64,000 bases of DNA from Halobacteriovoraceae bacterium (GTDB lineage Bacteria > Bdellovibrionota > Bacteriovoracia > Bacteriovoracales > Bacteriovoracaceae). A program made the translations under genes and the position numbers. The stretch lies in contig PASP01000006.1 of the NCBI GenBank assembly GCA_002712005.1, positions 180,822-244,821 of the forward strand. The letters run 5' to 3'. This document shows positions 44,236 to 48,742 of this stretch, piece after piece; positions within the stretch are counted from its first letter, which is position 1; every line of letters begins with the position of its first letter. The notes below the pieces were generated by a model that was not told the DNA's origin, made no database searches, and saw only the letters and a list, made by a program, of their open reading frames with translations.

Positions 44236-44772
44236 TTAATCTTTTACCTGTCTATAAAGAAGAATACTACTGAGCACAGTCAAGGCAACACCAAAGAGAG
44301 ACGTGTAATAAGCACGATCTTGGCGAAAGGTATCTTTTTCTACAAAGATAGTGTCTCCCGGCTTCAGTTTAAAATCCTCAAGGGCAAGATCACCACCCTC
44401 ACTCACATCAAACTGCAACTTTTCTCTCTTGCCTTCGCGGGTCGTGGTTACCACCACTGACTCCAAATTACTATTACTAGTAGGACCACCGGCCAAGGAT
44501 AGGCCATTAATTAAACTTGTATCTAAGGGAACAAAATGAAGTCCAGAATTTTTAATTTCTCCCCACATATGAACAGGAATAAGAACTTTCCCTTTCACCG
44601 ATGGAGAATAAAATATTGAACCGGCCTTCTTGCCCAAGTTATCCACTTCCGAAGGCAGAGCAAGCTCTCTAATATTATACTCCCCTTTTGAGGCTTGAGT
44701 ACTTGCCTTTTGGGCCCATGTCGGTACGGTTAAAAGAGAATAAATAAGTAAAGAGATACTAAACTTTTTCAC
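44236..44772 (-). CDS. SLBB-domain envelope protein (polysaccharide export related)
   Basis: 178 residues. Signal peptide SISLLIYSLLTVPTWA, one SLBB-type beta-grasp domain (GKVLIPVHMWGEIKNSGLHFVPLDTSLINGLSLAGGPTSN... DFKLKPGDTIFVEKDTF), and a C-terminal hydrophobic helix TSLFGVALTVLSSILLY. Wza-like export proteins have a polysaccharide-export domain plus two SLBB domains; here only one SLBB and no export domain are seen, so it may be an accessory that couples the outer pore to the inner-membrane machinery. The start is GTG with GGAG 7 nt upstream. Confidence 0.72.
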   Translation of the reverse strand: MKKFSISLLIYSLLTVPTWAQKASTQASKGEYNIRELALPSEVDNLGKKAGSIFYSPSVKGKVLIPVHMWGEIKNSGLHFVPLDTSLINGLSLAGGPTSNSNLESVVVTTTREGKREKLQFDVSEGGDLALEDFKLKPGDTIFVEKDTFRQDRAYYTSLFGVALTVLSSILLYRQVKD

Positions 44773-44860
44773 TAAACTACTCCAATCAGTTTTGATTCCT
44801 TATTATTATACAAAAAAATAGATATCTAGGTATAAAGATTCATAGATTTTTTTATGGGGG

Positions 44861-45117
44861 GCGGTGAGCGGTGATCGGTGATCGGTGTTCGGTGATCGGT
44901 GATCGGTGATCGGTGTTCGGTGATCGGTGTACGGTATCGGTATCGGTATCGGTGTTCGGTGCTCACTGCCACAGTCGCTGCCCACTGCCCACTGCCACTG
45001 CCCACCGCTCACTGCCCACTGCCCACTGCCCACTGCCCACTGCCCACTGCCCACTGTCCACTGCCCACCGCCCACTGCCCACTGCCCACTGCCACAGCCC
45101 ACCGCCCACTGCCCTAC
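44861..45117. repeat. Heptanucleotide inverted array, copy 1
   Basis: The first part (44861 to about 44960) is made of CGGTGAT/CGGTGTT heptads on the plus strand; the second (about 44962-45117) is made of CCCACTG heptads, which on the minus strand read CAGTGGG, that is the same C-R-G-T-G-R-K pattern inverted. The junction GTGTTCGGTGCTCAC (44952-44966) is shared exactly with copy 2. The halves can fold back imperfectly. This fills the 456-bp gap between the SLBB and NHL genes; no gene is seen in it and reading frames through it are low-complexity artefacts. Confidence 0.9.
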
Positions 45118-45228
45118 ACTTAAATTCTATGTGGAATATGAGAACAAAGGTAAAATATTCAAGTTATTAATTTTATTTACGATAAGTGAATAATACTAGC
45201 TTTAGGCGATCGGAAGAAATTAAAGATC

Positions 45229-46797
45229 ATGACTAAAAACAATCTTATTCACCATTTATTGATTCTTATAGGTCTAATCTTTTCCAGCTGTATCTCTATT
45301 TACGATAATGAAATTAATATCGTCCATCAGAAGAAAAATTCTCAGGGAGGAAGCTCCTCTACCGTAAAAAAATTGATTCTTGGCATTAATAACTACTTCT
45401 ATACTCAACCTAGTGACGTTTTCATTGGACCCGATGACAAAATCTATGTGGCCAGTGCAGGAAGCTCTAAGATTATAATTTATGACTCCGAATTTAACTT
45501 TCTTAATGAATTTGGTTCATTTGGAACAGCAGATGATGAATTTCAAAATTTATATTCCGTGGCCGTTAATAGTAAAGGAAGAATCTATGTTACCGATTAT
45601 ACAAACCACAAAATTAAAACCTTTGATTCACAAGGAAATTTTCTCTTTGCCACTGGCTCCCTTGGCTCTGGCAATGGTCAATTAAATTATCCCTTTGGTC
45701 TAGCTATAGACGAGCAAGATCGTCTCTATGTTGCCGATAGAAATAATCATCGGATTCAAATTTTTGATGAAAACGGTAACCACTTATCAAGTTTTGGTTC
45801 TAACGGTAGTGGAGATGGGCAGTTCATTAGTCCAACCGATATTTTTATTAATTCCCAGGGAAAAATATTTGTAACTGATACAGGAAATCATCGTGTGCAA
45901 ACTTTTTCAAGCCCCGGAGTCTTTGAAGCAGAGTTTGGTACAAATGGAACTGCAGATGGACAATTTACTTCACCAGCATCAGTTGTTGAACTAGGTAATG
46001 GAAATATTATTGTAAGTGATGATAGTCATCGCGTTCAATTTTTTGATCAGAACTTCAATCACCTCTTCACCGAAGGCGTTGCGAATACATTAGGAGATAA
46101 TGAAGAAGAGTTCTACTTACCTAAAGGACTTGCTCTATCAGACGAAAGCTTATTCATCGCAGACTATGGTAATAATAGAATTAAAGCTTACGATGGGCTT
46201 GGAAACTTTAAAAAAAGTTTTAGCGCTTCAGGTGATAAGAAGAGTCAATTCTATCTTACAACTGGTGTCGCAAGAAATAGTTTGGGAAATATATATGTTG
46301 CCGATTATATGAATAATCGTGTGCAAGTCTTTGATCAATATGGACAATTCCTACGAATCATCGGTACTCCAGGTTCAGCTGATGGTCAATTCTCTTTACC
46401 TATTGGAATCCATATTGATGAAAACGATAAAGTCTATATATCCGATTCAGGCAACAATAGAATTCAAGTCTTTAATGAGAATGACCAACACTTACTTAGC
46501 TTTGGAACTTCTGGATCAGCTGATGGGTCATTCGATACCCCTTATGATGTAGCAGTGGCTCCTGATGGCACAATATATGTTGCCGATAGAGAAAATCACC
46601 GGATTCAAAGTTTTGATAATCAAGGTAATCATCTTCTTACCATTGGAAATAGTGGCGTTAGCGATGGACAGTTCTCCAGCCCCGCAGCTGTGGCGCTAAA
46701 AGATAACTCCCTCTATGTAACCGACTCTTCAAATAATAGGATTCAGGTTTTTGACTTATCTGGAAATCATCTTCTAACCTTTGGCACGATGGGCTGA
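45229..46797 (+). CDS. NHL-repeat beta-propeller lipoprotein (interrupted by in-frame TGA)
   Basis: 522 residues before the stop. Signal peptide HHLLILIGLIFSSC with lipobox FSSC, then a polar linker (KKNSQGGSSSTVKK) and ten NHL repeats, each with the shape [A/T/S]D-x-x-N-[HN]-[RK]-[IV]-[QK]-x-F...G-x-x-L-x-x-[FI]G-x-x-G-x-x-[DN]GQF-x-x-P. NHL propellers bind proteins or glycans; here it is lipidated and exported, and sits among polysaccharide genes. The frame is closed by TGA (46795-46797), but the same frame continues for two more repeats, making 12 in all, the number for two six-bladed propellers. So the stop is either a recent nonsense mutation or a sequencing error. The ribosome binding site is weak. 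Confidence 0.85.
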   Translation: MTKNNLIHHLLILIGLIFSSCISIYDNEINIVHQKKNSQGGSSSTVKKLILGINNYFYTQPSDVFIGPDDKIYVASAGSSKIIIYDSEFNFLNEFGSFGTADDEFQNLYSVAVNSKGRIYVTDYTNHKIKTFDSQGNFLFATGSLGSGNGQLNYPFGLAIDEQDRLYVADRNNHRIQIFDENGNHLSSFGSNGSGDGQFISPTDIFINSQGKIFVTDTGNHRVQTFSSPGVFEAEFGTNGTADGQFTSPASVVELGNGNIIVSDDSHRVQFFDQNFNHLFTEGVANTLGDNEEEFYLPKGLALSDESLFIADYGNNRIKAYDGLGNFKKSFSASGDKKSQFYLTTGVARNSLGNIYVADYMNNRVQVFDQYGQFLRIIGTPGSADGQFSLPIGIHIDENDKVYISDSGNNRIQVFNENDQHLLSFGTSGSADGSFDTPYDVAVAPDGTIYVADRENHRIQSFDNQGNHLLTIGNSGVSDGQFSSPAAVALKDNSLYVTDSSNNRIQVFDLSGNHLLTFGTMG

Positions 46798-47067
46798 GCC
46801 CCTGGGCAACTCAGCAATCCTAGCGGTATTGACGTGGCCGATAATGGAGAAATTTTCGTAGCTGATACAATTAATAACCGTATTCAGGTTTATGATGATA
46901 GTGGAAGCTTTATTAAAACCTTCTCCTCACAAGGCTCACAAGAAGGTCAACTCTTCTACCCTTTTGGTATTCATATTGATAATGATGGAACCCTTCTTAT
47001 TTGTGATACCTATAATCACCGTGTACAAGGCTTCAATCAAGAGGGAGAAGTTATCAGTGTTCGGTGA
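46798..47067 (+). pseudogene. Remainder of the NHL lipoprotein gene (repeats 11-12)
   Basis: 90 codons in the same frame as the preceding gene, separated only by the TGA at 46795-46797. It opens with APGQLSNPSGI, which continues the NHL consensus exactly where the stop falls (FGTMG stop APGQL versus FGTPGSADGQF in repeat 8), and holds two further repeats (ADTINNRIQVY, CDTYNHRVQGF). It ends EVISVR, the last three residues being encoded by the start of repeat array copy 2. Whether the stop is read through is unknown; alone the fragment has no good start. Confidence 0.7.
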
Positions 47068-47230
47068 TCGGTGATCAGTGTTCGGTGGTCGGTGTTCGGT
47101 GAACGGTGGTCGGTGATCAGTGTCGGTATCGGTGTTCGTGTACAGTGATCAGTGTTCGGTGCTCACAGCCACTGCCCACAGCTCACAGCCACAGCCCACT
47201 GCTCACAGTCCACTGCTAGCTACCCACAGC
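47054..47230. repeat. Heptanucleotide inverted array, copy 2
   Basis: Same two-part build as copy 1: CGGTGAT/CGGTGTT/CAGTGTT heptads (47054 to about 47160), junction GTGTTCGGTGCTCAC (47152-47166), then CCCACTG/CTCACAG-type heptads to about 47230. It is more diverged than copy 1. Its left end provides the last codons and stop of the NHL frame, its right end the last codons (AVGS, stop TAG) of the convergent O-antigen ligase gene. It does not look like CRISPR, as there are no unique spacers. Confidence 0.88.
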
Positions 47231-48742
47231 CTTCCTATATTTAAAGTATTCCGAAACCCCCAACGCCGACCAAAACCAAAAAAAGAAAGATACAGGATTA
47301 AATGGGATCGAAACAGATCCCCAAGCAAATAGGGGAATAATAAGCACCATAGTGAAGCTTAGACTTACGATCTTAAATTCTTTATAGGCTTGCTTCTTTA
47401 TTAGACTGATCATCATGCTAAATAGAGTCGCATTGAGAGAGAAGATAAGTCCGATATAAAATAGAGCCCCTACCCCTAGCTCTAAGATCAAGAACGCATA
47501 TAAATTATCCATGGACCAAAAATACCAACTCGGCCTATCAATATACTGGGCTCTTCTTGCAGCAAAGGCAGGAAGAAAGTTCTGTGTCATTCCTAGACCG
47601 TAGCCAAAGGGAAGCTCAACACGCTTTTCTAAATTATGAAGAATTTCATTAAGTCCGGCACGATGGTCCGTTAAATTAGATTCCGTCATCCCTTCCCAGC
47701 GGGATAGGGCCCTTTCTATATTGAGTTCATCTGGTAGAGAAGATTGCAACGTACTATTTGAAAAAATTCCTACCCCGAGAAGTATGAAAAGAGCTGATGT
47801 TAACCATTTTGCTTTGAATTTACTGCCATAGAACTTAAAGAGCTGATAGAAAACAAAAACCCCAACTAATTTGAGGGTCGCACTTCTCACCTGTCCGATA
47901 AAGGAACTAAAGAGAATCACGGATATTCCAATAAAGAGTATGGCCTTAGCGAAGATTTGTTTTGGAAAATAAGAAGAAATTCTTTTTGGATTAAATAAGA
48001 GAAGAAGTCCACAACTTAGAAAATAAAAAAGACCCATACCACCAGGTACAAAGGTCGTTCCCCAAGGTCTGAAAGTTGGGCCAGTGAATCGACTATAAGA
48101 GGGAAAAAGACTCTTATAATTTTGGCTGATCCCATACATAAATTCTTCATTATACATATCCTGAACGATAGTAACACCAGCAAGTAATCCGAGGATTAAT
48201 GTAAACTTAAAGATATGCTTCTGGGCATGATCAGAATGGATATCAACAGGAAAGTTTAAAAAGAGAAAGAAGAGAAGCAAGGGAAAGAGATAGAATTTGG
48301 CCGTAGCTAAAGAGGCTAGAAAACCAGCTCCATTGGGATTAAATAATTCTAAACCAAACCAAAATAAATGGAGAATAAAGAATAAGCGCACCATATTAGG
48401 TGTAATCTCTTTAGAGAAGAAAGATCGTTTTATAATGATGGCCCTTGTAATTAAGAGAACTAAGAGTATATCAAAGATAAGTCTAAAGAGAGGATGATAG
48501 CCCCAAACAACCCTGCCCTGTCCTTCGAAAAGGGAAAAGATAATAAATGGCCAAATCATCGTATTAATTTCCTCTGTCACACAAAGGAGGGCCATACAGA
48601 TAAGCTGAACCAAATAAATATACTTAACCATAGGCGAACCAAGGAAATTGGCACCAATATTTAAGAAGGTGAAGAAATAGAAAAAAGTATTCAAAAGCTT
48701 AGAGAAAACTTTTTTCGATTGAATGCTTTGTGTTTCGGCCAT
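47216..48742 (-). CDS. O-antigen ligase/polymerase-like membrane protein
   Basis: 508 residues with about twelve hydrophobic helices and one long periplasmic loop (about 340-425: LPDELNIERALSRWEGMTESNLTDHRAGLNEILHNLEKRVELPFGYGLGMTQ...), the layout of the Wzy/WaaL (O-antigen ligase-like) superfamily. The loop carries a R-x-x-x-W and H-R-x-G pattern typical of such proteins. It is likely the polymerase or ligase of the surface polysaccharide made by this locus. Its last few codons lie in repeat array copy 2. It is divergent from the VanZ gene by 58 bp. Confidence 0.82.
   Translation of the reverse strand: MAETQSIQSKKVFSKLLNTFFYFFTFLNIGANFLGSPMVKYIYLVQLICMALLCVTEEINTMIWPFIIFSLFEGQGRVVWGYHPLFRLIFDILLVLLITRAIIIKRSFFSKEITPNMVRLFFILHLFWFGLELFNPNGAGFLASLATAKFYLFPLLLFFLFLNFPVDIHSDHAQKHIFKFTLILGLLAGVTIVQDMYNEEFMYGISQNYKSLFPSYSRFTGPTFRPWGTTFVPGGMGLFYFLSCGLLLLFNPKRISSYFPKQIFAKAILFIGISVILFSSFIGQVRSATLKLVGVFVFYQLFKFYGSKFKAKWLTSALFILLGVGIFSNSTLQSSLPDELNIERALSRWEGMTESNLTDHRAGLNEILHNLEKRVELPFGYGLGMTQNFLPAFAARRAQYIDRPSWYFWSMDNLYAFLILELGVGALFYIGLIFSLNATLFSMMISLIKKQAYKEFKIVSLSFTMVLIIPLFAWGSVSIPFNPVSFFFWFWSALGVSEYFKYRKAVGS

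Follow-up and report, generated by a model that had tools for sequence, protein, structure and literature searches.

A 2.4-kb segment in which two bipartite heptanucleotide arrays enclose an NHL-repeat lipoprotein gene is very probably an insertion with the arrays as its ends. It lies in a window of 64,000 nucleotides of genomic DNA from a Halobacteriovoraceae bacterium, the window being the whole stretch analysed in this study. We propose, with a probability of about 0.6, that the arrays are two ORF-less copies of a bipartite element and that array, gene and array entered the operon as one unit, the array pair having moved the NHL gene. It was apparently this array pair that introduced a foreign gene into a polysaccharide operon. 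Furthermore, PF05635 genes are, with near certainty, associated with inverted short tandem arrays of period 7-8 in several phyla, and these heptad-flanked genes provide a likely identity for the arrays of the window. Heptamer arrays and the PF05635 protein family are each already known; the coupling between the two and an array pair bounding a cargo insertion are new as far as the open-access papers searched are concerned, in which we found no literature linking PF05635 to tandem arrays.

Table 1. Positions of the arrays, the enclosed gene and the neighbouring genes in the window
Feature	Position	Strand	Remarks
Left flanking gene, SLBB-type (weak Pfam match), genus-conserved	44236-44772	-	
Putative inserted segment, array-NHL-array	44861-47219	.	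Missing from five congeners with adjacent flanking genes
Array 1, bipartite inverted heptad array	44861-45117	.	Tandem Repeats Finder and pattern matches
Array 1 junction, GTGTTCGGTGCTCAC	44952-44966	+	Exact match
NHL-repeat lipoprotein gene (putative cargo)	45229-47067	+	Lipobox by eye
Array 2, bipartite plan of array 1	47054-47219	.	Shorter and more degenerate than array 1
Array 2 junction, GTGTTCGGTGCTCAC	47152-47166	+	Exact match
Right flanking gene, multi-span membrane protein	47216-48742	-	O-antigen ligase/polymerase-like by eye

It had been proposed in a sequence-only reading of this DNA that two arrays with a shared bipartite and inverted plan are present, and this was borne out by Tandem Repeats Finder and by the pattern CRGTGNNCRGTGNNCRGTG, which has 29 matches in the window, every one of them inside the two arrays, with none expected from shuffles. 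Both arrays begin with CGGTGNN heptads on the plus strand and continue through a common centre, GTGTTCGGTGCTCAC, into similar heptads on the minus strand. In array 1 (~257 bp), plus-strand CRGTGNN units extend to about 44966 and are followed by ~20 inversely oriented units, which read CAGTGGG on the minus strand; array 2 measures ~166 bp. The period-7 calls are 44862-44961 (CGGTGAT) and 44978-45114 (CTGCCCA) for array 1, and 47053-47161 (ATCGGTG) and 47161-47208 (GCTCACA) for array 2. The CRGTGNNCRGTGNNCRGTG matches of the left halves are on the plus strand and those of the array 1 right half on the minus strand; in array 2 the right half is more degenerate. The 15-nt junction, claimed to be exact in both arrays, indeed occurs exactly twice, with no occurrence expected. 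The span previously given for array 1 was correct, whereas array 2 ends not at 47230 but at about 47219, within the final codons of the right flanking gene, whose AVGS-stop is array sequence. The period-7 tandem arrays of the window are largely intergenic, and array 2 overlaps two gene ends.

The evidence for an insertion comes from the genus. Clear orthologues of the SLBB-type gene are present in each of the other six genomes, and both flanking genes are kept in five of them (G001, G002, G003, G005 and G006); in G004 no copy of the membrane-protein gene was found in the interval from the SLBB gene to the next conserved genes. In all five testable congeners the flanking genes directly adjoin each other at a distance of 20-70 bp, and neither the NHL gene nor the arrays are present between them; it is on this basis that we regard the block as an insertion. 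The same junction in the source genome holds 2.4 kb with an array at both edges. The suggested role of the arrays as cassette ends is therefore supported by a comparison of presence and absence in related genomes that had been set beforehand as its test and that came out as predicted. No target-site duplication was evident by eye at this site, at which the congeners are too diverged. Within the segment there is no transposase gene, in agreement with the earlier view that any mobility would be non-autonomous, and this fits an array pair without an ORF of its own.

The single gene between the arrays is, as had been recognized, a lipoprotein gene; however it is broken by an in-frame TGA at 46795-46797, at a position where the NHL repeat consensus has serine. 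Past this codon the frame remains open for a further 85 codons and ends within array 2, at 47065-47067. The TGA is either a nonsense mutation or a sequencing error, and the in-frame TGA together with the frame running on into array 2 suggests that the gene is probably decaying. The six congeners all lack a homologue of the NHL gene, and gene and arrays are not in a constant order across relatives. The right flanking gene gave no Pfam match.

Bipartite heptad arrays are found at about five sites in the 3.96-Mb source genome, two of them 2 kb apart, and at none in the six congeners; such arrays are rare, and they are paired and not spread everywhere at random. In an alternative history, ordinary horizontal transfer and recombination would have delivered the NHL gene, and the arrays would have inserted separately on each side of it and would not be the ends of one unit. 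The gene is foreign to the genus, as such a history would have it, and array elements often occupy intergenic gaps without cargo, both in published cases (PMC4679880) and at cyanobacterial loci studied here. We nevertheless consider it unlikely, as the edges of the insertion are marked by array alone and the chance that two of ~five sites fall 2 kb apart round a foreign gene is, by our own estimate, roughly 1 in 100. Even less can be said for tandem repeats grown locally by replication slippage and unrelated to mobile elements. Tandem repeats do expand by slippage, and the length and fair uniformity of array 1 would agree with this, but slippage leaves unexplained the inverted halves with their exact common centre, the fact that relatives have an empty site, and the inverted array-PF05635 association across phyla, and we give this explanation hardly any weight.

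It had also been suggested that each array can form a long imperfect hairpin. While such folding is possible, neither array folds as DNA more stably than its dinucleotide shuffles (z = +1.4 and +0.2), and a special hairpin was rejected. These results bear on a further explanation, according to which the arrays are regulatory or RNA-processing hairpins that are cut by RNase III or act in termination, as in 23S rRNA intervening sequences. The arrays are placed between operon genes, and PF05635 takes its name from proteins whose genes lie in intervening sequences of 23S rRNA, the ends of these sequences being paired; both points would suit this explanation. However, in addition to folds (with DNA parameters) no stabler than shuffles, the window arrays have no Rfam match, terminator-like sites in the region show no excess over shuffles, and a structure of this kind could be a side effect and not the cause of the presence of the arrays; we therefore regard this explanation as improbable.

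Returning to the arrays as element copies, a finding beyond the sequence-only reading was made at the end of another contig, C12 (L153), where a 101-codon gene with a match to PF05635 (23S_rRNA_IVP, E 2e-13; alias four helix bundle protein, TIGR02436) has inverted CRGTG heptads on both sides, an arrangement that recurs in several phyla. This is the sole PF05635 gene of the source genome. Contig C16 begins inside the heptad repeat of C12, and therefore the two contigs are probably adjacent and split by the array; the flanking gene of this locus has no homologue in the congeners. No PF05635 gene is present between the arrays of the window, and therefore these are at most ORF-less relatives of PF05635 array elements. 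The matches to the junction GTGTTCGGTGCTCAC listed from a scan of all GTDB contigs look like chance 15-mers, of which several hundred are expected in 257 Gb, and among them a single 3-unit heptad match was seen at one locus only. Two distant relatives have one isolated 3-unit heptad match each. At four array sites of the source genome, runs of 6-11 G (or C) were noticed at the outer edge (window 44855-44861; L153:8880-8886; L154:121-132; L154:7718-7727), at all four on a constant side relative to the heptad orientation.

The association of PF05635 genes with arrays was examined at the best-scoring PF05635 locus of each genome, picked regardless of repeats, by counting arrays of period 6-9 at most 250 bp from the gene and, as controls, in windows 1-1.25 kb away at the same loci. 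Arrays were present at 45 of 54 gene sides versus 3 of 54 control windows in the cyanobacterial phylum (p 2e-17), at 15/58 versus 1/58 in Bacteroidota, where they are more degenerate (p 2e-4), and at 12/26 versus 3/26 in a mixed set of other phyla (p 0.013), with p-values that treat loci as independent although related loci were kept separate. A simpler test, based on three stacked units in which five or more columns are invariant, gave 77/112 sides versus 2/112 controls. In both the cyanobacterial phylum and Bacteroidota, the left flank was nearer to the reverse complement of the right flank than to the right flank itself at 25 loci versus 2, and the array unit varies between loci with the inverted partner following it. 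Clean arrays are seen, for example, in the L275 type (AGTGAAC/ACTGTTC). Median array lengths of 30-32.5 bp (period 7) and 35-37 bp (period 8) fit 4-5 units; a strict rule of exactly five units was weakened by unbiased seeds, which mostly have 3-5 conserved units. PF05635/TIGR02436 is present in 116 of 148 sampled Bacteroidota genomes and in 129 of 292 from the cyanobacterial phylum, and copies reach 16 to 18 matches per genome; a set of 14 control genomes gave no match to PF05635.

To our knowledge, neither a role nor a spreading mechanism has been agreed for the heptanucleotide arrays found in cyanobacteria and in giant sulfur bacteria, and we know of no function of the PF05635/TIGR02436 four helix bundle family outside rRNA. 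Direct repeats of the TAACTGA heptamer have been described in Beggiatoaceae, Cyanobacteria and Bacteroidetes, with a patchy spread (MacGregor 2015, PMC4679880). Regulatory roles were proposed and a possible mobile repeat-binding protein was raised without naming one; no encoding element was named and no connection with PF05635 was drawn in that work (PMC4679880). In our cyanobacterial sample, PF05635 is found in 48 of 52 genomes with YAACTGR arrays versus 81 of 240 without (p 2e-15) and, among genomes of at least 3.2 Mb, in 47/50 versus 28/57 (p 2e-7), the counts having been tallied by hand and including a few weak PF05635 matches. Inverted TAACTGA arrays directly flank the PF05635 gene at seven loci (L328-L331, L335, L345 and L346), and array-only bipartite copies without an ORF also occur in cyanobacteria, for example upstream of minD (L305). 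The cyanobacterial TAACTGA heptamers belong among the PF05635-flanking arrays. This link points to a specific candidate for the repeat-binding protein, previously only postulated, and it would also represent an unusual mobile-element design. The window arrays resemble the TAACTGA and STRR heptamers in being degenerate heptad tandem arrays that are mostly intergenic, patchy across phyla and often beside start codons, and the TAACTGA core CAGTT/CAGTG resembles the CRGTG of the window. They differ in that the window unit is CRGTGNN, the exact TAACTGA direct repeat being absent, and in that the window arrays are bipartite and inverted and as a pair bound a gene.

Several loci carry signs of mobility. 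PF05635 units split conserved operons, with gene names assigned by eye from translations, as nuoC-unit-nuoD (L367), 3-hydroxyacyl-CoA dehydrogenase-unit-thiolase (L362, L373) and odhB-unit-lpd (L376). At L365:3-2261 (reverse-complemented), a PF05635 domain and its arrays are in frame within a 752-codon DNA methylase frame, an arrangement that resembles an intein-style insertion. In one genome (G230, L348-L356), near-identical PF05635 copies on one chromosome are in units bounded by TIRs TAACTGACGTTACGC, and therefore another transposase probably moved them, which suggests hitch-hiking; these multi-copy loci were dropped as evidence of element ends as their bounds are the TIRs. That some PF05635 copies are in TIR-bounded units, for which the mover may be another transposase, counts against the explanation that we favour for the window arrays.

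It could also be argued that a REP-associated tyrosine (Y1) transposase moves the arrays in the manner of REPINs. There is one Y1 transposase in the source genome, and in a family relative (L202, 140-1784) exactly inverted 13-mer arrays, AGCGGTTTGGGTG and CCAAACCGCTCAC, enclose a PF05635 gene as well as a weak RAYT-like ORF at 1022-1600. However, the Y1 gene of the source genome is flanked by a non-heptad repeat, GGTGCCATGCAC..., and a RAYT was rejected as mover in this genome on that ground; moreover, no RAYT-like ORF was seen at the other array-flanked PF05635 loci examined in a partial scan. We consider this explanation very improbable. In the flanks of the Y1 gene, at L226:1140-1190 and 1925-1955, there are copies of a GGTGCCATGCACTTTTGGTTTCG repeat that could be REP-like and is unrelated to the heptads.

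According to the explanation that we favour, the window arrays would belong to a broad class whose coding members consist of one PF05635 gene between inverted short tandem arrays. The block would have entered at a junction of two operon genes much as a composite transposon does, the arrays forming its ends and the NHL gene being carried along as cargo. The PF05635 protein may read or bind the arrays and bring the two ends together, and it may act in trans on ORF-less arrays, with the strand-transfer chemistry perhaps coming from the host or another partner. Such reading is suggested by the five chains of 2gsc, the only solved relative found, and by its homologue Avd, which is a pentameric nucleic-acid-binding protein; an array of ~31 bp (period 7) or 35 bp (period 8) would offer 4-5 repeats to a pentamer. 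As a tentative joint reading, in which we place somewhat less than even confidence, PF05635 proteins would represent a widespread and undescribed minimal mobile element, comprising a ~115-codon gene between inverted arrays of ~4-5 units of 7-8 bp, in which a homopentamer would read the arrays with roughly one repeat per subunit, and which would have spawned ORF-less arrays, the cyanobacterial and Beggiatoa heptamers, able to move cargo genes in pairs, as in the window.

The arrangement shares features with several known systems. Like 23S rRNA intervening sequences, the C12 locus is a small insert with inverted ends and a PF05635 gene; in contrast, the window site lies between protein genes and not in rRNA, its ends are tandem arrays and its copies are without a PF05635 gene. 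As in composite transposons or MITE pairs, two element copies bound a foreign gene and relatives have an empty site, but the segment lacks a transposase and recognized terminal inverted repeats beyond the arrays. With REPIN/RAYT systems it has in common dispersed, short inverted palindromic repeats and, as proposed here, ORF-less copies mobilized in trans, though here there are tandem heptads and not two REPs, and the local RAYT has another repeat. Avd, the accessory protein of diversity-generating retroelements, is homologous to PF05635 (PMC10053308); unlike in Avd systems, no reverse transcriptase and no template or variable repeat was seen at these loci.

In Bdellovibrionota, the phylum of the window, arrays were found at 5/40 sides versus 1/40 controls, which is not significant, and many multi-copy PF05635 genes are without recognizable arrays. 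Both results count against the explanation that we favour, though individual loci of the phylum stand out, such as L202 with its exactly inverted 13-mers. These multi-copy genes often form divergent pairs with a palindromic spacer (L192, L193, L206, L207 and L215-L219, in Bdellovibrionota-like genomes); at L192, the only one of these loci read in detail, both start-codon regions fall within the long palindrome that makes up the spacer. Larger PF05635-type proteins with flanking 9-mer arrays were also observed (L233, L239 and L240). The L240 protein is a 'four helix bundle suffix domain' protein (TIGR04258), and the coding sequence itself looks partly array-derived at L233 and L239.
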